DNA of 64,000 nt from a virus: the IMG/VR virus record IMGVR_UViG_3300027659_000014, positions 1 through 64,000 of that record, one strand, 5' to 3'. Under the pieces are notes generated by a model, which saw only the letters and a program-made list of their open reading frames with translations, ran no database searches and was not told the DNA's origin. The translations under genes and the position numbers were made by a program. Shown in pieces: positions 781 to 60,684 of this stretch; within the stretch, counting starts at the first letter, position 1; every line of letters starts with the position of its first letter.

Positions 781-1602
781 TTACTTTATGAAATTTGTTA
801 CGTAACCCAATGCCCCCCAATGACCAACACCACTTGGGGTATCTGTTGATCCAGAGACAACTCCTTTACCTCTAACTTTAACAGGACCTGTTATAACATT
901 TTTATTTGGAACACCCATAGAGACCGCATCGTTTACAGAACTAAATACACCTGAAGATTTTGCATAAGATTCCACAATAAATAACCTATCTTTGTATTTA
1001 ATTTCTTTTGCAACCTGTGAAGAATATTTACACCCCGCACTAAATAAAACAACATAAGACTCAGGGTTTTTTCTAATAGCATCTAAAACTCCCTGTAGAT
1101 TATTATATCTAAATCCTATAATAGTTTTGTTTAGTAATTTATTTTTTAATACTTTAACTTGTTGGTCTATATTAAGATCTCCAGATCTTGTATCTAAACC
1201 GCCCATTAATATAACATCACCACTTGACACTTCAACTTGTGAATTATCTTCTTTTTCAGGATCATCAACTTTTTTAATTACATCAATTGATTTAGAGTTA
1301 GTATTACAAAAATCAGGTGTTATCCACTCAACTTTTTTATCCTCCAAATCTTTTAATTTACTTTTTGTATCATTACCAACAATACCATCATCGTCAATTC
1401 CCATTTTTCTTTGGAACTCCTGAACACAAGATTTTGTTTGTCTACCAAATTCACCATCTTTATGAATACCTAATAATTCTTGTAATGATCCGACCTCATC
1501 ACCGTTTGATCCTATTTTTAAGATAGATTCTATATTAGATACGGATTCAGTTATTATCCCCATCATTTCTTTTATTCTTTGTATGTTTTCTATTAAATTC
1601 AT
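781..1602 (-). CDS. Tagged peptidoglycan-binding-domain protein
   Basis: 273 aa. Residues 1-19 (MNLIENIQRIKEMMGIITE) form a short amphipathic segment ending in IITE, one of the recurrent N-terminal tags of this window. Residues about 28-88 look like a PG_binding_1 three-helix domain: GSNGDEVGSLQELLG, then DGEFGRQTKSCVQEFQ, then DGIVGNDTKSKL. After an acidic linker, residues about 125-273 form an unassigned alpha/beta-looking domain with VILMGGLDTR, VVLFSAGCKYS and a terminal GVGHWGALGY. The C-terminal part may be a hydrolase, but no catalytic set is certain. The PG-binding domain suggests cell-wall contact during entry or lysis. It lies 8 bases downstream of the next minus-strand gene. Confidence 0.75.
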   Translation of the reverse strand: MNLIENIQRIKEMMGIITESVSNIESILKIGSNGDEVGSLQELLGIHKDGEFGRQTKSCVQEFQRKMGIDDDGIVGNDTKSKLKDLEDKKVEWITPDFCNTNSKSIDVIKKVDDPEKEDNSQVEVSSGDVILMGGLDTRSGDLNIDQQVKVLKNKLLNKTIIGFRYNNLQGVLDAIRKNPESYVVLFSAGCKYSSQVAKEIKYKDRLFIVESYAKSSGVFSSVNDAVSMGVPNKNVITGPVKVRGKGVVSGSTDTPSGVGHWGALGYVTNFIK

Positions 1603-4110: not shown

Positions 4111-4695
4111 TTAATTTAATATATTCACCACAACATCTTCAATATCTGCACCATATTTTATTCCCATATCAACAATAAAAGATTCTACTATTGTTTTAAG
4201 TTCATCTTGAACATCAAAATAAGAAACCATATCATCAATTTCATTATTACCCCTTGAAATATCATATCTTTTTTGATAATAATTATCCTCAATATCATTA
4301 TACTCCGACATATTAATATAACCATCAAGTATGTCCATATCAGCCAAAATTTCTTTATCTTCACGATGTTTATTAATACGAACATTACTCAACTTAAATG
4401 TAAATTTAAAATCCTCATCATCCCATTGTCTGAAGTTTAATTCGCTAGACTTAAATGTTTTATTTGACAAAAAATCTAATAGGTTTTTTTCACCAATCTC
4501 TTTACCTCCAATGTATTCAATATAGTAATCGTGTATTTCATTTGATTTTTTTTTAAATCCAAGTTTACCAATTAAACTAATGTCAATTGTTGGATATTCC
4601 CCTTCGGATCTTATTTCATCCCAATGGTCAAAGAAGAACTTTTTTATTGGGTTCATTCTTTCTTCCTTCAATATTTTTCTAATTAGCTCTTTCAT
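4111..4695 (-). CDS. Tagged protein, paralogue of 3332-3886
   Basis: 194 aa. Tag MKELIRKILKEE (ILKE at residues 8-11) is followed by MNPIKKFFFDHWDEIRSEG, aligned with VNPVKKYFFDLWDEQKSLG of the neighbouring paralogue. The remainder is acidic. The start codon overlaps the stop of the 387-aa gene by four bases (ATGA type), so the two are translationally linked. Function is unknown. The duplication next to a sister copy suggests a dosage or variant role. Confidence 0.78.
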   Translation of the reverse strand: MKELIRKILKEERMNPIKKFFFDHWDEIRSEGEYPTIDISLIGKLGFKKKSNEIHDYYIEYIGGKEIGEKNLLDFLSNKTFKSSELNFRQWDDEDFKFTFKLSNVRINKHREDKEILADMDILDGYINMSEYNDIEDNYYQKRYDISRGNNEIDDMVSYFDVQDELKTIVESFIVDMGIKYGADIEDVVVNILN

Positions 4696-6539: not shown

Positions 6540-7913
6540 CTAATTTTTTTCAAACCACTCTCTCATTTCATCTCTGACAGAATTTAATGCTTTTTTAGCG
6601 TAATGTATAATAGCAGGAAAATAGTTTGTATTGTAGAAATCAATCAGTTGTTCAATTGTTTTAAATTTTTGATCTATATCCATAAAGTTATGGATCTCAA
6701 CATCCTCCTCATATTCTTCTATATCATTCCTATAAAAGTCTATGTCCACAGGTAGTATATTGTTTCCATCCCAAAACATTGTGGCATAACCTACTAATGC
6801 TTCAGTTTTATTTTTACCAAAATAAATTGTAAAATCCCATGTGGATGATTGACGATCAATTGCAACATTTATTTCAACCTCATCATCTTTATAATTAGAA
6901 TTCAATTCTTTTTTATCAAAGATATAATAAGTTAATATATCATTACATTGTTGAGGTGTAAATGATTTTATTTTATTTAAACTTAACTGATCATCATCAG
7001 ATGAAATAAAATCAGGTTTAATAAGTTTATTTGCAGCATTAATCGTCAAACCAAACTTTTTTATTGTGTCATAAACTCCAATCTTATCAACAGATTTTGA
7101 AATCATTTCTTTTGTTCTTTCAAAACTATTTTCAGATAATAATTTTTTATCATTAAACATTAACTTTTTAATTTCATTAACATATCCCGATAAAGGATTT
7201 TTTATATCCAATGGTGAGTTCAATATCCAATCCTCAATTTGAAAAAATCTTTTTAAAATCTGATTAATAGATTCATCCATAAATTCTTTTGGTGGTGTTG
7301 GACTTTCAGTTATTTCATCATTACTATATGATAACTTTTCAGTAACCTGTTTGTTTGCCAATCTATAAATTTTTTGAAATAACTCATCATCATTATTTTC
7401 AAACGCCAATGGGATTTCAAATCTTAACCCAATAGTGTAACTATATCTTGGGTTTTCACTTCTAGATCCTCCCATTATATTTTTATAATAATAAAGTTCA
7501 ATAACAGTATTATATTGACGGAAATTAAGTTCAGTTGGGGGGTCTGTTTTGTAACTAACATAACCAACATTTTCATTGTAAGTCACATCTTGAAATTGTA
7601 TTCTATCATTTCCGTCTCTTTCACTAGTAACAGATGTTTTAAGATATTTTAGAAAGGGTATTCTTTTTTTAAGGTATTCTTCAGTAACTTTAATTGATTT
7701 ATCTTCAATTTCATTAACCATATTATAGTTCTTCCAAAACTTATTTAATTCAGTTTTATTATATTTTTTTGACTTATTATCCCAACCACAAGAATGACAA
7801 AGATTAGGATGTTTATCCTTTTTTTCTTTATCCCAAGAGTGTTTACACTTAGAACACTTTATTTTACCTTCTAAAAGTAGTTTTGATTGTTCTTCAGTTA
7901 TAATAATTTTCAT
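6540..7913 (-). CDS. Tagged zinc-ribbon protein
   Basis: 457 aa. The N-terminus MKIIITEEQSKLLLEG is the second tag type, with LLLE at residues 12-15, and closely resembles the start of the sigma factor at 26594. Directly after it, CSKCKHSW and CHSCGWDN give a CxxC-x(n)-CxxC zinc ribbon at about residues 19-44. The remaining 400 residues are acidic and have no recognised domain. The start overlaps the stop of the 293-aa gene by four bases (ATGA). The tag sits before the zinc ribbon as a detachable leader would. Confidence 0.75.
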   Translation of the reverse strand: MKIIITEEQSKLLLEGKIKCSKCKHSWDKEKKDKHPNLCHSCGWDNKSKKYNKTELNKFWKNYNMVNEIEDKSIKVTEEYLKKRIPFLKYLKTSVTSERDGNDRIQFQDVTYNENVGYVSYKTDPPTELNFRQYNTVIELYYYKNIMGGSRSENPRYSYTIGLRFEIPLAFENNDDELFQKIYRLANKQVTEKLSYSNDEITESPTPPKEFMDESINQILKRFFQIEDWILNSPLDIKNPLSGYVNEIKKLMFNDKKLLSENSFERTKEMISKSVDKIGVYDTIKKFGLTINAANKLIKPDFISSDDDQLSLNKIKSFTPQQCNDILTYYIFDKKELNSNYKDDEVEINVAIDRQSSTWDFTIYFGKNKTEALVGYATMFWDGNNILPVDIDFYRNDIEEYEEDVEIHNFMDIDQKFKTIEQLIDFYNTNYFPAIIHYAKKALNSVRDEMREWFEKN

Positions 7914-9985: not shown

Positions 9986-10960
9986 ATGGAATATTTAATT
10001 AAAAAAATATTAAAAGAATATGAGGAGGAAGAGGAAAAAGCGTTTCCAAAAAATGTTTCTTTATTTTTTAAATTTTTAAATGGTTATAGAAAAGGAGGAA
10101 ATGTAACACTAAATGCCTTAGGTAATTTTATGTTGTCTAACATGAAAACTTTTGGTTTAAAACCTCAAGAATATCAACACTATTTAAATCTTTATACTCA
10201 AAATTTTAGAGAAGATGGTCAATACATTTTAACCAAAAAAAATGAATTAAATGCCGAATATAATCAATCAAAACCAAAACGAACTTCTAATTCAAAAGCT
10301 TCAGATTTAGTAAGGGATTTACAACCATTTAAAGGATCAAATTTAGAGGGTAAGTGGAAACAGGATTATAAGGGTGATTGGGCATATGTTGTATATTCTT
10401 GGAATTGGTATCCAATATATATGTATAAATATAAAAAATGGTTTGAGGTTGATAATCGATATTCCTCATCAACAGGTAAACATATGTCAGCCACAAGTCC
10501 TGGAAGGTATAACAGTCAGTTAAGAAAAACAATGTTCATTGTTTCACAAGATGAAATGTCTAATCTTTTAAACGGTCAACAAACATCAGAAAATATAATT
10601 AAAAATAAAAATAAAAAATTTATTGACATTGTTGGAAAAGAAATTCATACCTTAAAACAAGTTAGATTAGGTTGGGACCCAAGAGTTAGAATATCATTTA
10701 ATTTTATGAAAGTAAGTATGGAAGAAAATGATCCTCGTATTGATGTTGAAGTTATTAATGTTGATAAAATGGACAATAATAAAATAGATAGATCTTCAGG
10801 TAACTTTTTAAAAGGTGAAATGGTTGGAGTTTCAAAAGAATATATCACCGATTTAATGAAAGAATACATCTCAAGATATTCTTCCTCTATATTAGGAAGA
10901 GATGTTTCAAATGAAATTAGTGTAATCGTAACTTACTTAGATAATCCAAATATAAACTAA
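9986..10960 (+). CDS. Tagged protein of unknown function
   Basis: 324 aa. MEYLIKKILKEYEEEEEK is the tag, with ILKE at residues 8-11. A basic Ser-rich linker follows around residue 90 (KPKRTSNSKASD). The middle has WAYVVYSWNWYPIYMYKYKK, a very aromatic stretch, then SSSTGKHMSATSPGRYN. The C-terminal third looks alpha/beta. No family was recognised. It is an isolated plus-strand unit with its own motif and terminator. Confidence 0.75.
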   Translation: MEYLIKKILKEYEEEEEKAFPKNVSLFFKFLNGYRKGGNVTLNALGNFMLSNMKTFGLKPQEYQHYLNLYTQNFREDGQYILTKKNELNAEYNQSKPKRTSNSKASDLVRDLQPFKGSNLEGKWKQDYKGDWAYVVYSWNWYPIYMYKYKKWFEVDNRYSSSTGKHMSATSPGRYNSQLRKTMFIVSQDEMSNLLNGQQTSENIIKNKNKKFIDIVGKEIHTLKQVRLGWDPRVRISFNFMKVSMEENDPRIDVEVINVDKMDNNKIDRSSGNFLKGEMVGVSKEYITDLMKEYISRYSSSILGRDVSNEISVIVTYLDNPNIN

Positions 10961-20470: not shown

Positions 20471-21082
20471 TTAATCTTGATTGTTTTCTAATTCATTTAA
20501 TTGTTTTTCTAATCTTTCGATGCTACCCCAAATAATTCTAGCGGTTGGATCTATCGATTTAATCTGTTCAACTAATTCGTTTTGTCTGCCTCTGCTGTAA
20601 AATCCAAGTTCAATATCATTAGCCAAGTTTTGGATGTGTTCTGGTGCGTGAATAGAAATACGGAGGTCATAAGATTCCCATTTAGTTTTCCAATCAACGA
20701 AAGCGATTCCCTTAGTTAATTTCCTAAGTAAATTATGTAGAGTCCAATTACGAACTCTAACAATTGATCGGTCACTACCAAATACATGTAAGAACCGTAG
20801 AAACCATCTTTGGCACCATTTTGGTTTTGCTTCATAGTCCATTGCCAACACCAGTGGATAAAGAGCTTTGTAGTAGACGCTGTCTTCTTTATAGAAAGTT
20901 ATTCCAAGATATCCCCACTTTTCTAGTTTCTTTGGAAAAAAGATATACCGTAAGTCATCCAAGTTGATGTTACGAGTGTGTATAATACCTTTTTTACGTC
21001 CTCTCCAAAATATCAGACTTTGTGCAAAAGATTTTACCTTTGTTGCTATAGACCGATTGTCTTTGTAATCAAATTTACTCAT
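20471..21082 (-). CDS. Conserved phage protein of unknown function
   Basis: 203 aa. DNRSIATKVKSFAQSLIFWR and KWCQRWFLRFLHVFGSDRSI are basic and Trp-rich. The C-terminal third ends in a charged helix (SIERLEKQLNELENNQD). It seems to be the first gene of the early cluster 18.8-21.1 kb: a TACATTTG element lies 18 bases upstream. Confidence 0.65.
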   Translation of the reverse strand: MSKFDYKDNRSIATKVKSFAQSLIFWRGRKKGIIHTRNINLDDLRYIFFPKKLEKWGYLGITFYKEDSVYYKALYPLVLAMDYEAKPKWCQRWFLRFLHVFGSDRSIVRVRNWTLHNLLRKLTKGIAFVDWKTKWESYDLRISIHAPEHIQNLANDIELGFYSRGRQNELVEQIKSIDPTARIIWGSIERLEKQLNELENNQD

Positions 21083-21137: not shown

Positions 21138-21839
21138 TCATAACCATTTTATTTCATTTGTTATTGAATCCCATTCAATGTTAAGAGGTAAGTTAGTGTA
21201 ATTATATCTCTCATCTAATACTGAAGCATTAATAAAGTGTGTGTGTCCATTATAATAATATCCTGAACTTCCATGTATGTGTCCAAATACATGAATCTTT
21301 GGTTTGATTTCATCTACTCGATGACGTAACATTTCACAACCTAATCTTACACTTTGTCCTCCTGGAATATCTAAATGTCCAAATGGTGGTCCGTGTGTAA
21401 TCAGTATGTCCGTATCGTCAGGTATATCATCCCACTTTGCTTTCATTACTTCTCCATTTCGAGGTAAATTAAAAGCCCAATTAAAGAACTCTGGTTGCCA
21501 AGGTGACCCATAGATCTTTAAACTACGATCTTCATCCATATCATAAAGACCAAACATCTCATCTTGAAGATAAATTAGATTTGTATAATCTTTGATGGTT
21601 AATAAACTCCAAGTAGGTTCATTTTCTAAAATACGGTCGTGATTTCCTGCAATAAAAATTTTCTTATCGTATCCTTTTATTGTACTAAACCAATCAAGGA
21701 ATTCAATTACCTCTATTTTACTATATCCACCGTTCATAAAATCTCCAGCATGTATTAGTATATCACCACCTGGTAAATCATTTTCACAATACCGGTGTTT
21801 GGTATGTGTATCACTAATAAATGTTATTGTTTTTTTCAT
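21138..21839 (-). CDS. Calcineurin-like metallophosphoesterase
   Basis: 233 aa, the complete motif set: D10-T-H12 (FISDTHTKH), GDF in ILIHAGDFMNGG, GNHD in IFIAGNHDRIL, THGPPFGHLD and FGHIHG. These are the metal ligands and catalytic His of the superfamily, which hydrolyses phosphodi- or monoesters using two metals. Within the superfamily it resembles small cytoplasmic YfcE/UDG-type phosphodiesterases rather than SbcD. The natural substrate is unknown. A TATATTTG element lies four bases before the ATG, implying a near-leaderless mRNA. Confidence 0.9.
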   Translation of the reverse strand: MKKTITFISDTHTKHRYCENDLPGGDILIHAGDFMNGGYSKIEVIEFLDWFSTIKGYDKKIFIAGNHDRILENEPTWSLLTIKDYTNLIYLQDEMFGLYDMDEDRSLKIYGSPWQPEFFNWAFNLPRNGEVMKAKWDDIPDDTDILITHGPPFGHLDIPGGQSVRLGCEMLRHRVDEIKPKIHVFGHIHGSSGYYYNGHTHFINASVLDERYNYTNLPLNIEWDSITNEIKWL

Positions 21840-22911: not shown

Positions 22912-23139
22912 TTATTGATTATCAATTAATACATAAGGGGGATTAATTCTTACCTCAGACCCATCACTATTAAAGTAATACGCCGTATCCCCATCAAAAC
23001 TAATGGTATCTGTATACCAAATAGCAGGATGAGGACCTTTATTGGTAATAACATCACCTTTTATTTTATATCTATATTTGTTTTGGTTACACGAGAATAT
23101 TATAAGTCCGAGTAAAACAATAAGAATTAATTTTTTCAT
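22912..23139 (-). CDS. Small lipoprotein
   Basis: 75 aa. MKKLILIVLLGLIIFSC is a lipoprotein signal with the lipid-modified Cys17. The mature 58 residues are strand-rich with WYTDTISFDGDTAYYFNSDG. Lipoprotein export by a phage suggests superinfection exclusion or a role in lysis; neither is shown. A TATATTTG element lies 22 bases upstream. Confidence 0.65.
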   Translation of the reverse strand: MKKLILIVLLGLIIFSCNQNKYRYKIKGDVITNKGPHPAIWYTDTISFDGDTAYYFNSDGSEVRINPPYVLIDNQ

Positions 23140-23601: not shown

Positions 23602-25458
23602 TTAGATTACCTCTTCAAACTCAACATCAGATGGTTTACTATTTTCTTCTTCTGTTGTTGTTTGTTCGTACAATAATTGACTAATATTTTGAAATTTAGT
23701 ATTAAGATCATTGATATCATTTTCAATCTTCTCAATATCTTTTTTACCGTAAGATTCTTTTAAACTTTCAAGTGCCGTATTAAGTTCGATTTTTTGATCT
23801 TCGGTTAATTTTTCATCTAAATCTTTGATTGATTTTTCAGTTTGAAAAATTGTACCGTCGGCTCTATTTATAACTTCAGCATCTTCTCTTAGTTTTTTGT
23901 CTTGTTCAACATTTAACTCAGCTTCTTGTTTCATTTTCGCAATCTCTTCTTTTGATAACCCAGAAGATGCCTCAATACGAATTGTTTGTTGTTTGTTTGT
24001 TCCTTTATCTATCGCTGACACATTGATAATTCCATTTGCGTCAATATCAAACGTAACTTCAATTTGTGGAACACCTCTCATTGCCGGTGGAAGACCATCT
24101 AAGTTGAATTTACCAATAGTTTTATTATCGGTTGACATTGCTCTTTCTCCCTGAAGTACGTGGATCTCAACTGTTGGTTGATTATCCACTGCCGTTGAGA
24201 ACACCTGAGATTTTTTAGTCGGGATTGTGGTATTAGACTCAATCAATTTAGTCATAACTCCACCCATAGTTTCAATACCTAAAGATAATGGTGTTACATC
24301 TAATAATAAGACATCTTTAACATCACCAGCTAACACACCTCCTTGGATTGCAGCACCTAACGCAACTACCTCATCAGGGTTAACACCTTTAGAAGGTTCC
24401 TTACCAAAGAATTGTTTAACCGCATCTTGTATTGCTGGAATTCTTGTTGTACCACCAACCAAGATAATTTCATCAACATCAGAAACCTTCATCTTAGCAT
24501 TTTTTAATGCCTTCTTACAAGGTTCAATTGTTCTTTTAACCAAAGAATCAACTAACTGTTCAAATTTAGATTTTGATAATGTTCTTACCAAATGTTTTGG
24601 TAGACCATCCACAGGCATAATATAAGGTAAATTGATCTCACTTGATGAGGTTGAAGATAATTCAACTTTTGCCTTCTCAGCCGCCTCACGTAATCTTTGT
24701 AATGCCATTGGATCCTGAGTTAAATCAAGACCGTTCTCTTCTTTGAATTCACTTACTAACCAATCGATGATTGTTTGATCAAAGTCATCACCACCTAAAT
24801 GAGTATCACCATCAGTTGATAATACTTCAAACACTCCGTCACCTAATTCAAGAATGGACACATCGTGAGTACCACCACCACAGTCAAAAACCACAACTAC
24901 CATATCTTTAGACATTTTATCTAAACCATAAGCTAATGCCGCCGCGGTAGGTTCGTTAATAATACGTTTTACTTCTAAACCCGCAATTTCACCTGCCTCT
25001 TTAGTTGCTTGTCGTTGAGCATCGTTAAAATATGCCGGTACGGTAATAACCGCCTGAGTTACCGTTTCACCCAAATAATCCTCAGCAGTTTGTTTCATCT
25101 TTTGAAGTACCATTGCCGATATTTCTTGTGGTGAATATTGTCGTTTATCTATTTCAACTCTTGGAGATCCTCCATCACCTTTAACAATCTTATACGGTAC
25201 TTTTTTAATCTCTTTTTTAGATTCATCAAAACTTGTCCCCATAAAACGTTTAATTGAACTAATAGTTTTATCCGGATTGGTTACAGCTTGTCGTTTAGCC
25301 GGATCTCCAATTTTTCTTTCACCATCTGTAATAAATCCAATGACGGATGGTGTTGTTCGTTTACCTTCACTATTTGTTATAACTACAGGTTCGTTTCCTT
25401 CCATAACGGCAACACACGAATTTGTTGTTCCTAAATCAATTCCAATAATTTTTCCCAT
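23602..25458 (-). CDS. dnaK: Full-length Hsp70 chaperone DnaK
   Basis: 618 aa, close to the usual 610-640. ATPase domain (1 to about 380): [66 protein letters not shown] and [11 protein letters not shown]. The interdomain linker [16 protein letters not shown] is intact. The substrate domain holds [13 protein letters not shown], and the helical lid runs to a C-terminal [10 protein letters not shown]. All nucleotide-binding motifs are intact, so it should be an active ATP-driven foldase. FDCGGGTHD instead of FDLGGGTFD is usual for Bacteroidetes. A phage dnaJ lies at 42504-43430; no grpE is in the window. Confidence 0.96.
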
Positions 25459-26582: not shown

Positions 26583-26590
26583 TATTTATT
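26583..26590 (+). promoter_or_regulatory. Late-type-like element upstream of the tagged sigma factor
   Basis: CTATTTATT, then GGT, then the ATG at 26594: TATTTATT, one base different from TATTTATA, at the usual short distance. Confidence 0.35.
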
Positions 26591-26593
26591 GGT

Positions 26594-27154
26594 ATGAAAA
26601 TTATTTTAACTGAATCTCAATATTCAACATTATTAAATGAGGTAGTTGATTTTAATTCACTATATAAATCTTTATACCCAAAAATGTATCGACAAGTTTG
26701 TTTGAAATATGCAAATGGAGATGAAGAAAAAGCAAATGATTTTTGTCAATTAGGGTTCATTAAAGTATATCAAAAAATTAGTATGTACAATGAGTCAGGA
26801 CCTATTGAGGCTTGGGTAAAACGTGTAATCACAAATACAGTAATTGATGAATGGAAAAAAGAAAAAAGAAGTCCATACAAAAACCCCATTGACTTTGAAC
26901 GAGCAAATTTAGAAGTAATTGACGACACCCCAGAAGAAAGTTTATATTCATCAAAAGAGATTAAAGATGCCGTTGAAACTTTATATCCTTCACAAAAAAA
27001 AGTATTTGAGATGTTCTTTTTTGAAAATATGAAACATCAAGAAATTGCCGAAGAATTAGGGATTAGTGAAAGCACATCAAAAACTAATTTATTTAAAGCA
27101 AAGGCAAAAGTAAAACAATACCTAATTAATTTAAACAAAAAAAGGGAAGACTAA
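26594..27154 (+). CDS. Tagged ECF-type sigma-70 family factor
   Basis: 186 aa. MKIILTESQYSTLLNE is the second tag type (LLNE at residues 13-16) and precedes the sigma domains. Region 2 (about 20-95) has YPKMYRQVCLKYANGDEEKA, DFCQLGFIKVYQKI and WVKRVITNTVIDEWKKEKR. Region 4 (about 125-178) has LYPSQKKVFEMFFFENMK, the helix-turn-helix HQEIAEELGISESTSKTNLF and KAKAKVKQYL. ECF sigma factors direct core RNA polymerase to specific promoters. If the tag acts like the T4 capsid-targeting sequence, this factor could travel in the virion. It is a monocistronic plus-strand gene. Confidence 0.9.
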   Translation: MKIILTESQYSTLLNEVVDFNSLYKSLYPKMYRQVCLKYANGDEEKANDFCQLGFIKVYQKISMYNESGPIEAWVKRVITNTVIDEWKKEKRSPYKNPIDFERANLEVIDDTPEESLYSSKEIKDAVETLYPSQKKVFEMFFFENMKHQEIAEELGISESTSKTNLFKAKAKVKQYLINLNKKRED

Positions 27155-33549: not shown

Positions 33550-35082
33550 TTAGTCAGTTCTAAATACAATATAGGTATTTGAATTTATATTAACTTCTTG
33601 GTAATCCCCATCATAATGACTTATTACGCTATAGTCAGATTCATCAATTAAGTCACGTAGTAAACTTCTTGTATTAACAAAATTATCATAGTTCATACCA
33701 TAATCATCCAACCAAGATATCGGGTCAGACTCTATCTCATCTCTTTTTTCTTCCATAACTCGTTCAATATCATCATCACTTAAATCTCCATCAGGATTCT
33801 CTTCAATTTCTTCAATTTCAGAATCTATTTCTTCCGCCCTATTCTCAATTTCTTCAATCCTTGATTCATTATCCGATTCATGTTCTCCATCTTCATCTTC
33901 ATCTTCATAAGTTACTGACTCAACCTTTTTATTGTTTTGGTAAATTTGCCATTTATCGTCAGACCATTCAACAACTAATAAATTGTTCATATAATCTTTG
34001 AATTTAAAGTATTTCATACTTTCTATTCCTTCTTCAATAAGAGGAGATCTAGCCCCATTTGAAATTAAATAATTTTCTATCTCAAGAGATTTTTTTTCAT
34101 TTTTAAGGTTTATTATTTCTTGATCTTGTTCTTTACTAGTTTCTTTAGAAATATCATAATCTTCATAATTTTCATAAATATCGTCACGAATCGAATCTTC
34201 AAAATACTCATACACATCTTCACCATCAATGTGATTACTTAGTGTGCTTTTATCAAAATTATTTAAATCATTTACCATATCTTCATAATATTCTTCAATG
34301 GAGTCATCCACCTCACCTTCAGTACCAACAGCATAAGTATTTCCATTTGTATCACCATGAATTGATTTAAATACTGTCATTTTATAGTGAGAATGCCGAT
34401 CTTCGGGAACTAAACCATATTGATCATTATCTTTTTCCTTTAAGGCGTCAATATTTTCTTCTAACTCATCTCTTTCAGTATATAAATCATCTAAAATTTC
34501 ATCATCTTCCTCATTATCAATTTTTTCTTCAAGTTCCACCATTTGTATTTCTAAATCTTCTAATTCTTCACGTTCTCGTCCATCTAAATATCCAATATCA
34601 TTTTGTTGAACCATATAGTCAAAAACTGCGTTTGCCATCTCACTTATTTCATCTGTATTTTTTATATTCCATTCGTCATTTATTCTTCTTTCATTAGCGT
34701 CTTCCCTTTCTTGTTTTAATCTTTTTTTCTCAATTTCATCAGCATATGGTGTCATATGATACGCACCAAGTTTTTCAAATTTTACCCCGTCTAAGTTTTT
34801 TATTCCGGTATAAGGAATATCTAATTGTCCACTTACCGTTAAATCACCTAAACTAGTAATTTGTCTTAAACCATTTAATTTCAAATTACCATTAACTCTT
34901 ATTTTTTTACCTTTAAACATTGGTAATCTTGAAATAACTTTTGCATTAAAATTAACAGATACCAACAATTTATGATATTGTTCCGGGGTAATTTCAAAGT
35001 AATCATTTTCAGATTCTTCAACAATAATATTTTTTATTAAATTTATTAATTTGTTTTCTGTAATTTTTATAATTTTTTTCAT
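33550..35082 (-). CDS. Tagged, highly acidic protein with leucine-rich-like segment
   Basis: 510 aa. Residues 1-23 (MKKIIKITENKLINLIKNII followed by VEE) combine features of both main tag types, with IIVE at 19-22. Residues about 48-115 hold LPMFKGKKIRVNGNLKLNG, TSLGDLTVSGQLDIPYTG and IKNLDGVKFEKLG, a short beta-rich repeat like phage LRR-type domains. The remainder is very acidic (many Glu/Asp blocks, for example EEIDNEEDDEILDD) and probably coiled coil. A TATTTATT element lies just upstream. The function is unknown. Confidence 0.72.
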   Translation of the reverse strand: MKKIIKITENKLINLIKNIIVEESENDYFEITPEQYHKLLVSVNFNAKVISRLPMFKGKKIRVNGNLKLNGLRQITSLGDLTVSGQLDIPYTGIKNLDGVKFEKLGAYHMTPYADEIEKKRLKQEREDANERRINDEWNIKNTDEISEMANAVFDYMVQQNDIGYLDGREREELEDLEIQMVELEEKIDNEEDDEILDDLYTERDELEENIDALKEKDNDQYGLVPEDRHSHYKMTVFKSIHGDTNGNTYAVGTEGEVDDSIEEYYEDMVNDLNNFDKSTLSNHIDGEDVYEYFEDSIRDDIYENYEDYDISKETSKEQDQEIINLKNEKKSLEIENYLISNGARSPLIEEGIESMKYFKFKDYMNNLLVVEWSDDKWQIYQNNKKVESVTYEDEDEDGEHESDNESRIEEIENRAEEIDSEIEEIEENPDGDLSDDDIERVMEEKRDEIESDPISWLDDYGMNYDNFVNTRSLLRDLIDESDYSVISHYDGDYQEVNINSNTYIVFRTD

Positions 35083-38232: not shown

Positions 38233-38988
38233 TTATAACATTAATTCGGCTGTCTCCCAAAGTTTTGTGTTTAATGTATTTAAAGTAATAATATTTTTTA
38301 ATCCTCTCAATCCTGTTTTACGTCCGGATTGTGATTTATATTCAATTCCACCACGGACAAATTTCTCTTGTACTACATTAAATACTCTCCATAGGTCATC
38401 TCCTTCATCTTCATTACGATTAGGTGTTAACAAGTCAACTAAATCAAGTGTTGAGGGTACTGATCCTGCTGTCCACCTAAGTTTAGATGCTTTTTGAACA
38501 AAATCTATTTTTTCGGACATAGTAAGTTGACGTTCCATCATTCTTCCAACAGACTGTTGAATTATTGGTAATTTTTTTGCAAAACTTTCAGTTAAACTTT
38601 TAACATCGTCAAGTTCAAAATTTTTGTGTCTAAGTTTAAATTGGTCAGCTACTGATGTTGGAACTGTTAATCCATTACTACATACTAATCTGTGAAGTCC
38701 AGAACTCATTGAGAATGAACACATACCATTGTGAGAGTTTCTAATAATCGCCTCAACTAAAGTGTCTCCAACCGATGGAAGTTGTTGATTACGAAACTTT
38801 ACTTCATGTACTGAGTGTATATCCTTACCATTTTGGTTAACTGATGAAATTTCCCACCCTTCTCTTTCAAAATATTCCATAATTTTGTCGGTAGGAACAA
38901 ATTGGTACTTGTTTGTCATTTTTGACGATGGGGATGTTGCAAAAATAGACGGTGCCATTGTTTGAATTAATTCTGTTGTATAGTTCAT
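38233..38988 (-). CDS. DUF932 (phage/plasmid-like TIGR03299-type) protein
   Basis: 251 aa. VPTDKIMEYFEREGWEI at the N-terminus, LPSVGDTLVEAIIRNSHNGM, SFSMSSGLHRLVCSNGL and a C-terminal region WRVFNVVQEKFVRGG match DUF932, a family of phage and plasmid proteins of unknown function that are often highly expressed early. A TATCTTTG element lies 23 bases upstream, in line with early expression. Confidence 0.82.
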   Translation of the reverse strand: MNYTTELIQTMAPSIFATSPSSKMTNKYQFVPTDKIMEYFEREGWEISSVNQNGKDIHSVHEVKFRNQQLPSVGDTLVEAIIRNSHNGMCSFSMSSGLHRLVCSNGLTVPTSVADQFKLRHKNFELDDVKSLTESFAKKLPIIQQSVGRMMERQLTMSEKIDFVQKASKLRWTAGSVPSTLDLVDLLTPNRNEDEGDDLWRVFNVVQEKFVRGGIEYKSQSGRKTGLRGLKNIITLNTLNTKLWETAELML

Positions 38989-42351: not shown

Positions 42352-42507
42352 ATGAAAACTGAAGCAACACAAGTAACCGGATGTAAAAAATGTGGACAAT
42401 CGCCAAGTAAAACACAAAAATTTGTTTTTATTACTGGAGCAATAATGTTTTTATTGACAATATATGGTTTAGTTTCTTTAATATATGATATTAAATCACT
42501 ATTTTAA
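42352..42507 (+). CDS. Small CxxC single-span membrane protein
   Basis: 51 aa from MKTEATQVTGCKKCGQSPSK. The frame is open upstream but no ATG until 42220, which would run antisense across the Dam gene. KCGQSPSKTQ is followed by one hydrophobic helix (FVFITGAIMFLLTIYGLVSL). CxxC could bind metal. TATTTATT lies 19 bases upstream. The 3' end overlaps dnaJ by four bases. Confidence 0.58.
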   Translation: MKTEATQVTGCKKCGQSPSKTQKFVFITGAIMFLLTIYGLVSLIYDIKSLF

Positions 42508-43430
42508 CTTCTATTGTATTTAATATATTGATTTATTAATAAATCACCATTATGTTGGTTTTTATACCCTTTTCCTTTAACTCTTAATGGTGTTGATGTA
42601 TCAACATTATTTGGGAATTTAACATTTATTTTTCCATCTGGATGTGGAACATCAAATGATCCTCTTTTTAAATCATCAAGATTTAAAAAAGCACTATATA
42701 TAAGATTTGTTCCTAATTTTTCAAAGTTACCCTCATTAGTTGTTTTAACTCTAATAACCAAATTACCATATCCCCCGTTTCTATAATCACCAAGTCCTTG
42801 TAATCTTAAAAACTGACCATCATCAATTCCATGTGGTAGTTGGATCTCGATTGTTTTAATCTCATTTTTTGTTCCTTGTCCCCCACAAGCATAGCAAGCT
42901 GCTGTTGTTATTTTACCAACACCATTACAAGTATTACACGCTACTTGGACTATCTGTATAAACATTCCTGAACCCATTTGTTTTACAACAAATCCTTTTC
43001 CATTACAAACATTACATGGTTTTTTCTCTCCCCCATTTCCATTACATGGAGGACATTTATCTTTTCTGTTATATGTTATACTTTTTTTACCCGCTAAGTA
43101 TGATTCCAATACACCAATATTTATATCAATTATGGTGTCGTGAACTCTATTTTGTGAATTACGACCACCAAACATATTATTCATAATGTCATTCATTGAT
43201 TGACCTCCAAAACCGTTCATGTTAGAAAATGGGTTATTTCGTTGGTTGTTGTATTGTGATCTTTTATTTTCGTCTCCAATAGTATCATATGCAGTTGAGA
43301 TTTTTTTAAACTTTTCCTCATCCCCACCTTTATCGGGGTGATTTTCTTTAACTAAATTCCTATAAGCTTTTTTAATTTCGTCTTGAGTTGCACTTTCTGT
43401 AACTCCTAACACATTATAATAATCTTCCAT
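42504..43430 (-). CDS. dnaJ: DnaJ co-chaperone (Hsp40)
   Basis: 308 aa, shorter than the bacterial 370-380 because the C-terminal region is reduced. The J-domain (1-62) has the HPD motif at residues 31-33, which stimulates DnaK ATPase. Residues 126-185 hold four zinc motifs: CPPCNGNG, CNVCNGKG, CNTCNGVG and CYACGGQG. The Gly/Asn-rich linker (NNPFSNMNGFGGQSMND) joins them. With phage DnaK it would form a folding machine; phages such as lambda need host DnaK/DnaJ for replication initiation. TATATTTG lies 32 bases upstream. Confidence 0.94.
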   Translation of the reverse strand: MEDYYNVLGVTESATQDEIKKAYRNLVKENHPDKGGDEEKFKKISTAYDTIGDENKRSQYNNQRNNPFSNMNGFGGQSMNDIMNNMFGGRNSQNRVHDTIIDINIGVLESYLAGKKSITYNRKDKCPPCNGNGGEKKPCNVCNGKGFVVKQMGSGMFIQIVQVACNTCNGVGKITTAACYACGGQGTKNEIKTIEIQLPHGIDDGQFLRLQGLGDYRNGGYGNLVIRVKTTNEGNFEKLGTNLIYSAFLNLDDLKRGSFDVPHPDGKINVKFPNNVDTSTPLRVKGKGYKNQHNGDLLINQYIKYNRS

Positions 43431-51810: not shown

Positions 51811-52257
51811 TTAACGATCCTCTATTGTAAATCCTTGAGAATCAACCTCAGGTCCATTATCAATTAACATTTCAACTTTGATTTCTCCATCAACAAATCT
51901 TGACACAGAACAGAATTCAATTTCAACATCCTCATTAAGATTCATTTTAAACTCGTTATACTGTTCCTCAGTTTCAAATGACCCAACTTGACTTGCCGGT
52001 GATTGGTAAACTTTTAGACGATACGAACCAAATGGATTTTTAAGTTCAGAAACTTCCATAATAAGATTATCAAACTTATAATTATCAGTACCATCTTCGG
52101 TTACAAATTTCCCATCATTATCCCTTTTTAATGTTTGAGAATAATGGTACCCACAATTACCACAATTTATATAATCTTCACCTGTTTTGTAATAGAAATC
52201 GCTAAACGCTTCTTGTTTACAATTTGGACATTCAATATAATCAATTACACTTCCCAT
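51811..52257 (-). CDS. Zinc-ribbon protein
   Basis: 148 aa. CPNCKQEAFSDFYYKTG and CGNCGYHYSQTLKRD form a CxxC...CxxC zinc ribbon (about 11-43). A beta-rich domain follows (FGSYRLKVYQSPASQVGSFE) ending with an acidic IDNGPEVDSQGFTIED. No family was recognised; zinc ribbons suit nucleic-acid or protein binding. TATCTTTG lies 15 bases upstream. Confidence 0.62.
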   Translation of the reverse strand: MGSVIDYIECPNCKQEAFSDFYYKTGEDYINCGNCGYHYSQTLKRDNDGKFVTEDGTDNYKFDNLIMEVSELKNPFGSYRLKVYQSPASQVGSFETEEQYNEFKMNLNEDVEIEFCSVSRFVDGEIKVEMLIDNGPEVDSQGFTIEDR

Positions 52258-52310: not shown

Positions 52311-53111
52311 TTATAAATAGTCAAATAATTCTGAACTATCGTTTCTTAATCTTCTTAACGCCTTTTCTTTTATTTGTCTAACTCTTTCTTTTGTTAATCC
52401 AAAATCACTCCCAATATCTTCCAAAGTTCTTGGTGTTCCTGTGATCCCAAAATAATCGCCAATAATTGATTTTTCACGATCATCTAAATTATTTAATAAA
52501 TTTAACATTTTTTCTTTTAAAATATCGTTTGTATTAAAAATGGCATCAGGAGCTTCAGCCTCTTGATTAACAATCATATCAATAAGGGTATCACCGTCTT
52601 CATTTATTTTCATGTCTAAATCAACAATAGATGGTAATCCAGTAAACTTATCATCCATTTTATTTCCAGATTGTTCAACTTCTTTTTTCGCCCTATGTAA
52701 ATCTTGTACAACATTAACTGGTAATCTTATTGTTCTCGAATTATCATTTAATGATTGTAAAATTGATTGTTTAACCCACCATACTGCGTATGAAATAAAT
52801 CTAAGATCTTTATTCCAATCAAAATTTTTAATTGCTTTCAGTAAACCATGATTACCCTCAGCAATTAGATCTTGTAAATCTAATCCTTGGTTTTGATATT
52901 GTTTTGCAACTGTTATAACAAACCTTAAGTTACCCACAAGTAATTCTTCTTCAATTTGTTTTTTTTCAATTTCAGAAATATTATCTGATTTCATTTTTAT
53001 CGCCAAAGTTTTTTCCCTTTCTGGTGACATAACTTTAATTTTTCTAATATCTTTAAGATAGTAATATACTTCTTCTTGATTAATTGGGATTCCTAAATTT
53101 TTACTTTTCAT
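52311..53111 (-). CDS. Sigma-70 family RNA polymerase factor, group 2/RpoD-like
   Basis: 266 aa. Region 1.2-like INQEEVYYYLKDIRKIKVMS, then region 2: NLRFVITVAKQYQNQGLDL, DLIAEGNHGLLKAIKNFDW, and RFISYAVWWVKQSILQSL (2.4). Region 3 has NSRTIRLPVNVVQDLHRAKK. Region 4 has LDDREKSIIGDYFGITGTP and the helix-turn-helix GSDFGLTKERVRQIKEKAL. It should bind host core RNA polymerase and could recognise TATTTATA late promoters or the host-like ones; the sequence cannot decide. It contrasts with the tagged ECF factor at 26594. Confidence 0.93.
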   Translation of the reverse strand: MKSKNLGIPINQEEVYYYLKDIRKIKVMSPEREKTLAIKMKSDNISEIEKKQIEEELLVGNLRFVITVAKQYQNQGLDLQDLIAEGNHGLLKAIKNFDWNKDLRFISYAVWWVKQSILQSLNDNSRTIRLPVNVVQDLHRAKKEVEQSGNKMDDKFTGLPSIVDLDMKINEDGDTLIDMIVNQEAEAPDAIFNTNDILKEKMLNLLNNLDDREKSIIGDYFGITGTPRTLEDIGSDFGLTKERVRQIKEKALRRLRNDSSELFDYL

Positions 53112-59829: not shown

Positions 59830-60684
59830 TTATTTTGTCAAATACTTTTTCATATCCATTTCAAGAATTGTGTTAATCGTTTTCTTTAAGACTCTATGTT
59901 CAACATATTCTCTTTCTTCCGTTAATAAAACAACAATACAACCCATCAATTTAATGTTCTCATATTTCGTACCCTCTAACATCTTCAATAATAACTTACC
60001 GTAAAATGGTAATTGAGTGTTGTAGTGACCAAGAGCGTTATCAGGTAAATCTTCAAATGGTTTCTTCATTGGTTTTGTAAACTTATTCTTTTCAAAGTTT
60101 TTAGGTTTGTTTGTTTTCCAATCCGTAATTAAAATACCAAGATCACCATTTGTACCAATAATTAACCATACCTTATCGGGTTGCCCTGTATAACCCAATT
60201 CAGGGTGACCCAAAACCATTTCCGTATCAAGTAAAATACAATTACGTTCTTTAAGTAAATCAATGTATTGTTTACCCGCAACAACCATAGTATCTCCTTT
60301 TACAATCTGTTCGGCATCACATTCATAAATTGGTTGTCTAACTTCTTTACTAATACCAAATTCTTCTAAGGTATGTTTTTCTAATAAGAAGTGAACACGA
60401 GAACCCATGTTTGTGGAATATGTTCCAGCGGCAGCCCATTCCTCCAATAATCGTTGTTGTTCATAAGGATCACCATTCGCCTTTCTAAATGAAATTCCTT
60501 CAGAATCAAATTCCGTATAGAAATATTTCATCAATTTAGAAACAGAAGGGAAATCGTCTCTTAATTTACCACTAACATCCAACATTGTGTACTTGTGAGC
60601 ATCTTCTTCAAATGTTAATTGAAACTCTTTTTGTTTTTCTGATATAATTTCTCTGATCTCTTCAGATATTTTTTTTAAATCCAT
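59830..60684 (-). CDS. PD-(D/E)XK nuclease (RecB/Cas4-like)
   Basis: 284 aa. FEEDAHKYTMLDVSGK and FPSVSKLMKYFYTEFDSEG are followed by MGSRVHFLLEKHTLEEFG, with the conserved His-like region of RecB-family nucleases. Then ELGYTGQPDKVWLII and ILITDWKTNKPKN give the D...DxK metal site, and ALGHYNTQLPFYGKLL the downstream Q-x-x-xY. It probably cuts DNA and may act in recombination or as an exonuclease. TATCTTTG lies 20 bases upstream, indicating early expression. Confidence 0.85.
   Translation of the reverse strand: MDLKKISEEIREIISEKQKEFQLTFEEDAHKYTMLDVSGKLRDDFPSVSKLMKYFYTEFDSEGISFRKANGDPYEQQRLLEEWAAAGTYSTNMGSRVHFLLEKHTLEEFGISKEVRQPIYECDAEQIVKGDTMVVAGKQYIDLLKERNCILLDTEMVLGHPELGYTGQPDKVWLIIGTNGDLGILITDWKTNKPKNFEKNKFTKPMKKPFEDLPDNALGHYNTQLPFYGKLLLKMLEGTKYENIKLMGCIVVLLTEEREYVEHRVLKKTINTILEMDMKKYLTK

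Follow-up and report, generated by a model that had tools for sequence, protein, structure and literature searches.

Why should a phage sigma factor begin with a short peptide that also opens an unrelated protein of the same virus? The question is raised by a gene in the window analyzed here (the whole stretch of 64,000 nucleotides, positions 1 to 64,000 of the IMG/VR record IMGVR_UViG_3300027659_000014, which spans 106 kb), for which an earlier note proposed that an ECF-type sigma factor is carried in the virion. The features that define the problem are the following (here and below, an arrow marks a putative cleavage site):

26594..27154, plus strand: 186-aa pre-protein of an ECF-type sigma factor, made up of the leader, region 2 and region 4, identified by an ORF with an ATG start, Pfam, PHROG and PDB profile searches, and orthologs
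26583..26589, plus strand: TATTTAT at -11 of the sigma gene, either a late promoter or an element of the start site, found also upstream of leader and head genes in related phages
26594..26641, plus strand: leader MKIILTESQYSTLLNE, residues 1-16, a proposed capsid-targeting propeptide with LTE↓S (E7) and LNE↓V (E16), delineated by ortholog conservation, unrelated cargo and the AlphaFold2 model
26663..26869, plus strand: sigma region 2 (residues 24-92 by Pfam; in the model, helices start at residue 20, with pLDDT about 88)
26957..27109, plus strand: sigma region 4 (Pfam residues 122-172; AlphaFold2 model)
6540..7913, minus strand: 457-aa protein in which a zinc ribbon comes after the leader that the sigma factor also has (MKIIITEEQSKLLLE↓G), read from the sequence; the architecture recurs in many related loci
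52311..53111, minus strand: RpoD-like sigma factor without a leader and without TATTTAT, an internal contrast (profile search, upstream scan)

The product of 26594-27154 is an ECF sigma factor with intact regions 2 and 4, as the earlier note had it. Above-cut-off Pfam matches to Sigma70_r2 (residues 24-92, E 1.3e-11) and Sigma70_r4_2 (residues 122-172, E 4e-15), the assignment to the PHROG 1740 sigma factor (E 5e-25) and the closest solved structure, that of the ECF factor SigW (5wuq), all concur; regions 1.1 and 3 are missing, and the helices of the structural model agree with this assignment. In regions 2 and 4 and in the overall fold, the protein resembles SigW, PHROG 1740 and the factors of crAss-like phages and RM378, but the ECF factors examined lack the extra 16-residue N-terminal tag. 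The protein encoded at 52311-53111 (minus strand), with sigma regions 2 and 4 over the cut-off and a weak region 1.2, has no leader, and its gene has no TATTTAT upstream. The phage thus has two sigma factors, of which the leaderless one is likely to be a late or middle factor. T4 gp55, the late sigma factor, likewise is phage-encoded and redirects the host polymerase, but its synthesis takes place inside the infected cell and serves the late genes; its counterpart here is likely to be the leaderless RpoD-like protein.

The protein starting at 7913 (minus strand) opens with MKIIITEEQSKLLLEG and continues directly into a CxxC...CxxC zinc ribbon, and direct reading of both proteins bore out the claim that the two leaders are nearly identical. 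A degenerate DNA pattern for MKII[x]TE.Q matches the 106-kb record twice, at the starts of these two genes, with no match in the reversed control, which indicates that the likeness is not due to chance. The IMG/VR orthologs of the sigma factor carry the leader wherever the start falls on the contig; residues M1, K2, I3, I4, T6, E7, S8, Q9, Y10 and E16 show no variation in the first alignment, which extends down to 60% overall identity, and the leader is still discernible in orthologs at 41-43% identity. Among the latter, the ortholog in a record of 268.7 kb (G009, 43% identity) starts with MKIIIKESQLPLLLENLQFEE, and the sigma part in locus L190 (41% identity) is fused behind another leader protein and retains a leader within the fusion, though of another type (...IKITESDLTRIIERIIQEQVATEPINF).

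Some residues precede region 2 in other ECF factors too, and it could be argued that the protein is an ordinary intracellular ECF sigma factor, with the N-terminal 16 residues belonging to its own fold and resembling the zinc-ribbon protein by chance. We consider this to be very improbable: dozens of unrelated proteins bear the same leader (see below), and such a leader is absent from the phage ECF-type factors that were compared, namely those of G008, RM378 and crAss-like phages, with most of the crAss-like and other phage matches aligning only from about residue 18 or later. The search of cellular genomes for relatives of the sigma factor retrieved distant ECF factors only, all without the leader; a tblastn search of named phages with the bare leader gave no matches, the query probably being too short. 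In the AlphaFold2 model (18-row alignment, mean pLDDT 77.5), residues 1-20 have pLDDT values of 47 and 58 per ten-residue block and include a separate, low-confidence short helix (residues 7-14), compared with pLDDT near 88 for the first helix of region 2, which starts at residue 20. In this model, then, the leader lies outside the folded region 2, contrary to one of the two observations that the earlier note itself had named as speaking against its proposal. The chance likeness and the inclusion of the leader in region 2 are ruled out by the conservation of the leader across phages on unrelated cargo, together with the model.

A scan of viral contigs with the leader DNA pattern, which constrained residues 1-9 only, yielded at least 120 stretches. 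The matches listed include 209 leader proteins with a length of 50 aa or more. They form 68 clusters that share no detectable similarity beyond the leader. This peptide, with the consensus MKIIITE[SEN]Q[YLF]xx[LI]..E and several interchangeable variants, is therefore common to unrelated proteins, in the same manner as the T4 targeting sequences of 10-19 residues. The cargo includes a lysozyme with LysM, a GDSL protein with transglycosylase, a cell-wall hydrolase, a pterin-4a dehydratase, zinc ribbons (an architecture that recurs in many related loci), the sigma factor, many proteins of unknown function and, from reading of the sequences, a DHH-like protein. Across the leader genes, the codons of the fixed residues differ synonymously, indicating that the constraint acts on the peptide. 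Some cargo proteins carry the leader in one phage and lack it in a relative (L039, L071, L178 and others), a natural experiment on virion cargo in each phage.

In T4, the prohead protease gp21 cleaves after L/I-X-E and removes the N-terminal capsid targeting sequences, 10-19 residues long, from the internal proteins (PMC9026906). The leaders of the sigma factor and its orthologs end in a motif of the gp21 type, the ends in the orthologs being LLNE↓V, IINE↓G, LTE↓G, LISE↓G and LLLE↓N; the sigma leader also holds an earlier motif, LTE7↓S8, and T4 Alt opens with MELITE. Within leader residues 11-18, [L/I]xE is found in 38 of the 68 clusters (it is missing there in about 44%), compared with 13.5 ± 3.0 in shuffled sequences (maximum 25 in 5000 shuffles), a comparison that is uncorrected for common descent of the leaders; equal-sized downstream windows contain the motif in 1-12 of 55-68 cases. 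The major capsid proteins of the leader phages have ASFLINE↓AT, ALLSE↓AT or ALLNE↓ST aligned with LTE↓A of T4 gp23, at the inferred cleavage site.

When homologous cargo proteins carry differing leaders, [L/I]xE is located at or near the junction on each member in most of the pairs examined, and some cargo homologs have no leader whatever. The DHH-like cargo is found behind four leaders (MKIIITESQYKMLINE↓SGIRDI, MKNLIRKFLKEHTLILE↓SGIRGI, MKKIISE↓GGIRNI and MNMRKNLILE↓SGIRDI), and the junctions of the sigma cargo across leader types are ...LLNE↓VVDF and ...LLLE↓NLQF, with ...RIIQE↓QVAT in the fused gene. In that gene (L190, 9608-10531), a single ORF encodes a leader-tagged protein of unknown function, the internal leader and the sigma factor, with the [L/I]xE site IIQE↓Q between the two halves, as if a polyprotein were cut apart.

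The TATTTAT element is among the most enriched upstream words of this phage. In related loci, 51 of 144 leader genes have it exactly at -12/-11, compared with 90 of the 967 remaining ORFs (p about 1e-14), many of these 90 bearing leaders of other types. Among head genes, it lies upstream of gp21 in all 7 head clusters, of gp22 in 5 of these 7 and of terminase in 4 of 6. The element at -11 of the sigma gene is kept in the orthologs. TATTTAT may act either at the start site or as the promoter of mRNAs that are nearly leaderless. Unlike TATTTAT, the T4 late promoter word TATAAATA in the sense orientation shows no significant enrichment upstream of leader genes, and the Bacteroidota-type TAnnTTTG is rarer there. 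TAnnTTTG elements (Bacteroidota housekeeping type) are found upstream of the non-structural genes 20471-21082, 21138-21839, 22912-23139, 38233-38988, 51811-52257 and 59830-60684, all on the minus strand, and form a second promoter class beside TATTTAT. Such host-type elements at non-structural genes would not by themselves require a phage sigma factor.

The fixed spacing of TATTTAT to the start codon (-12/-11) would fit an alternative in which the conserved start is an expression element, with TATTTAT and the AT-rich start codon region boosting late translation and the peptide being a by-product. Several observations make this explanation quite doubtful: the leader residues are fixed even though their codons vary synonymously, the [L/I]xE enrichment extends past the residues fixed by the search, swapped leaders with different DNA mostly retain [L/I]xE at the junction, and head genes with TATTTAT can lack a leader.

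Leader genes adjoin gp20, gp21, gp22, gp23 and terminase genes within the head clusters of related loci. Among 27 leader-bearing records, in a count confined to contigs with the leader, the S77 prohead protease exceeds the cut-off in 11 and gp23 in 10, all 10 records with gp23 having S77; the portal protein (gp20) without S77 is seen only in G019, where the portal gene is at the very edge of the contig. A leader-tagged sigma ortholog, S77, gp20 and gp23 co-occur in one record (G009), and S77, gp23 and gp20 are also found together in G059, which is linked to this phage by a baseplate wedge protein with 83% identity. For this phage, then, the S77 protease and gp23-type capsid protein are seen in relatives (including G009): the 106-kb record that contains the window has no matches to S77, gp23 or gp20, its head module being absent because the record appears to be partial. 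The short sigma-bearing records lack S77 and, in those tested, also the portal, as expected for fragments. The G009 record (L084) contains two complete-looking head modules, at 27-35 kb and 230-238 kb, with gp20, gp21 and gp23 present twice; the record may be a mixed assembly, or else the phage may have two sets of head genes.

The same genomic context bears on a further possibility, that the leader is a targeting or processing tag for another destination (tail, envelope or lysis) or a propeptide that keeps the protein inactive, with the sigma factor acting late in the cell and not being injected. Among the leader proteins are several peptidoglycan hydrolases with a possible role in lysis or the tail, the leader-tagged lysozymes could be endolysins and not head cargo, and the sigma gene and the leader genes share a late-type upstream element. 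Nevertheless, the location of leader genes in head clusters, the agreement of the leader motif with the inferred cleavage site of the capsid protein itself, and the design of T4 internal proteins and Alt, namely a short N-terminal propeptide with [L/I]xE, argue against such a tag, which we regard as unlikely.

The source of the window is probably a large, T4-like phage of Bacteroidota. Judged by baseplate or capsid, the nearest named phages are all distant (Flavobacterium phage immuto, Microcystis phage Mel-JY01 and RM378). The T4-like phage immuto (MW353175.1; L275, L276) has been isolated, and proteins encoded in and near its head cluster have leader-like N-termini, though of other types (MKKQILSEQF..LAGIITES, MENFDLKKFLVEN..LINEG and MENNFDIHKWQAKFLKES). 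This phage offers a culturable system for the leader idea; no paper on its virion proteome was found in the literature searched.

The window itself appears to encode more candidate cargo with other leaders, given that a relative of the 1611-2213 protein in L083 is homologous to cargo with the MKIIITE leader in L097:

1611..2213, minus strand: candidate cargo with the alternative leader MRDIIKKILKE↓E, based on the near-identical L083 protein and its L097 homolog
4111..4695, minus strand: candidate cargo with the alternative leader MKELIRKILKE↓E (sequence reading)
33550..35082, minus strand: candidate cargo with the alternative leader MKKIIKITENKLINLIKNIIVE↓E and TATTTAT upstream (sequence reading, upstream scan)
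9986..10960, plus strand: candidate cargo with the alternative leader MEYLIKKILKE↓Y and TATTTAT upstream (sequence reading, upstream scan)
781..1602, minus strand: peptidoglycan-binding, endolysin-like protein with the alternative leader MNLIENIQRIKEMMGIITE↓S (sequence reading, domain search)

The window also encodes a DnaK homolog (23602-25458, minus strand) and a protein with a DnaJ-like start (42504-43430, minus strand), as judged by inspection of the translations.

Taken together, the modularity of the leader, the protease motif, the leader swaps, the co-occurrence with gp21, gp23 and gp20, and the upstream element support, at the level of sequence, the claim of the earlier note that the leader marks a protein packaged in the virion. 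The leader is probably a T4-type capsid-targeting propeptide, with the sigma pre-protein being packaged, trimmed and injected to act on the host polymerase: a removable-looking head tag of 16 residues that is common to dozens of unrelated phage proteins suggests that the phage probably injects the sigma factor along with its DNA. Under this scenario, the pre-protein would be made late, together with the head genes, and would dock on the prohead core through its N-terminal leader peptide. A gp21-type S77 protease would then cut after [L/I]xE, most likely at LNE16↓V17 and possibly at LTE7↓S8, and the trimmed sigma factor, about 170 aa long, would be retained with the packaged DNA. Upon infection, it would be ejected with the genome and bind the core RNA polymerase of the host ahead of any translation of phage genes. 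The early steps are modeled on sequence evidence and the established biology of the T4 head; we infer the ejection and the action on the polymerase.

The closest parallels are in T4. The capsid targeting sequences of IPI, IPII and IPIII, which are gp21 substrates, are likewise short N-terminal peptides on unrelated cargo, with L/I-x-E at their ends, and relatives of this phage have, like T4, a gp21-type protease and a gp23-type capsid; the putative targeting system described here differs in having another consensus with interchangeable variants and many more cargo families. T4 Alt, the injected ADP-ribosyltransferase, is a propeptide-bearing head protein aimed at the host RNA polymerase and starts with MELITE, compared with MKIILTE here, but Alt modifies the polymerase covalently whereas the sigma cargo would change promoter choice directly. 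The parallel to N4 drawn in the earlier note would hold for timing and needs to be amended otherwise. As with the virion RNA polymerases of N4, jumbo phages and crAss-like phages, a virion protein would direct transcription without prior protein synthesis, but in those cases a whole polymerase is injected, whereas the protein at 26594 is a sigma subunit, not a polymerase catalytic subunit, and would need the host core enzyme; T4 Alt and the IP proteins, with their capsid targeting sequences and gp21 cleavage, are the nearer precedent. The literature searched contained no description of a sigma factor carried as head cargo, which does not prove absence; in the accessible text of two papers that contain both 'virion proteome' and 'sigma factor', a late sigma factor is merely listed among genome annotations.

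On balance, the evidence leans toward T4-like phages of Bacteroidota-type hosts bringing dozens of proteins into the head by means of a large repertoire of interchangeable capsid-targeting propeptides. One of these proteins would be an injected sigma factor that reprograms the host RNA polymerase before phage gene expression. Virion-borne control of transcription is known in the form of injected whole polymerases (N4, phiKZ-type and crAss-like phages) and polymerase modifiers (T4 Alt). If the present reading is correct, injection of a sigma factor would add a third form at a much lower cost, with a single subunit of 170 residues borrowing the enzyme of the host. The leader would also serve as a sequence tag with which to list injected host-takeover proteins in many uncultured phages, turning genes of unknown function into predicted virion cargo.
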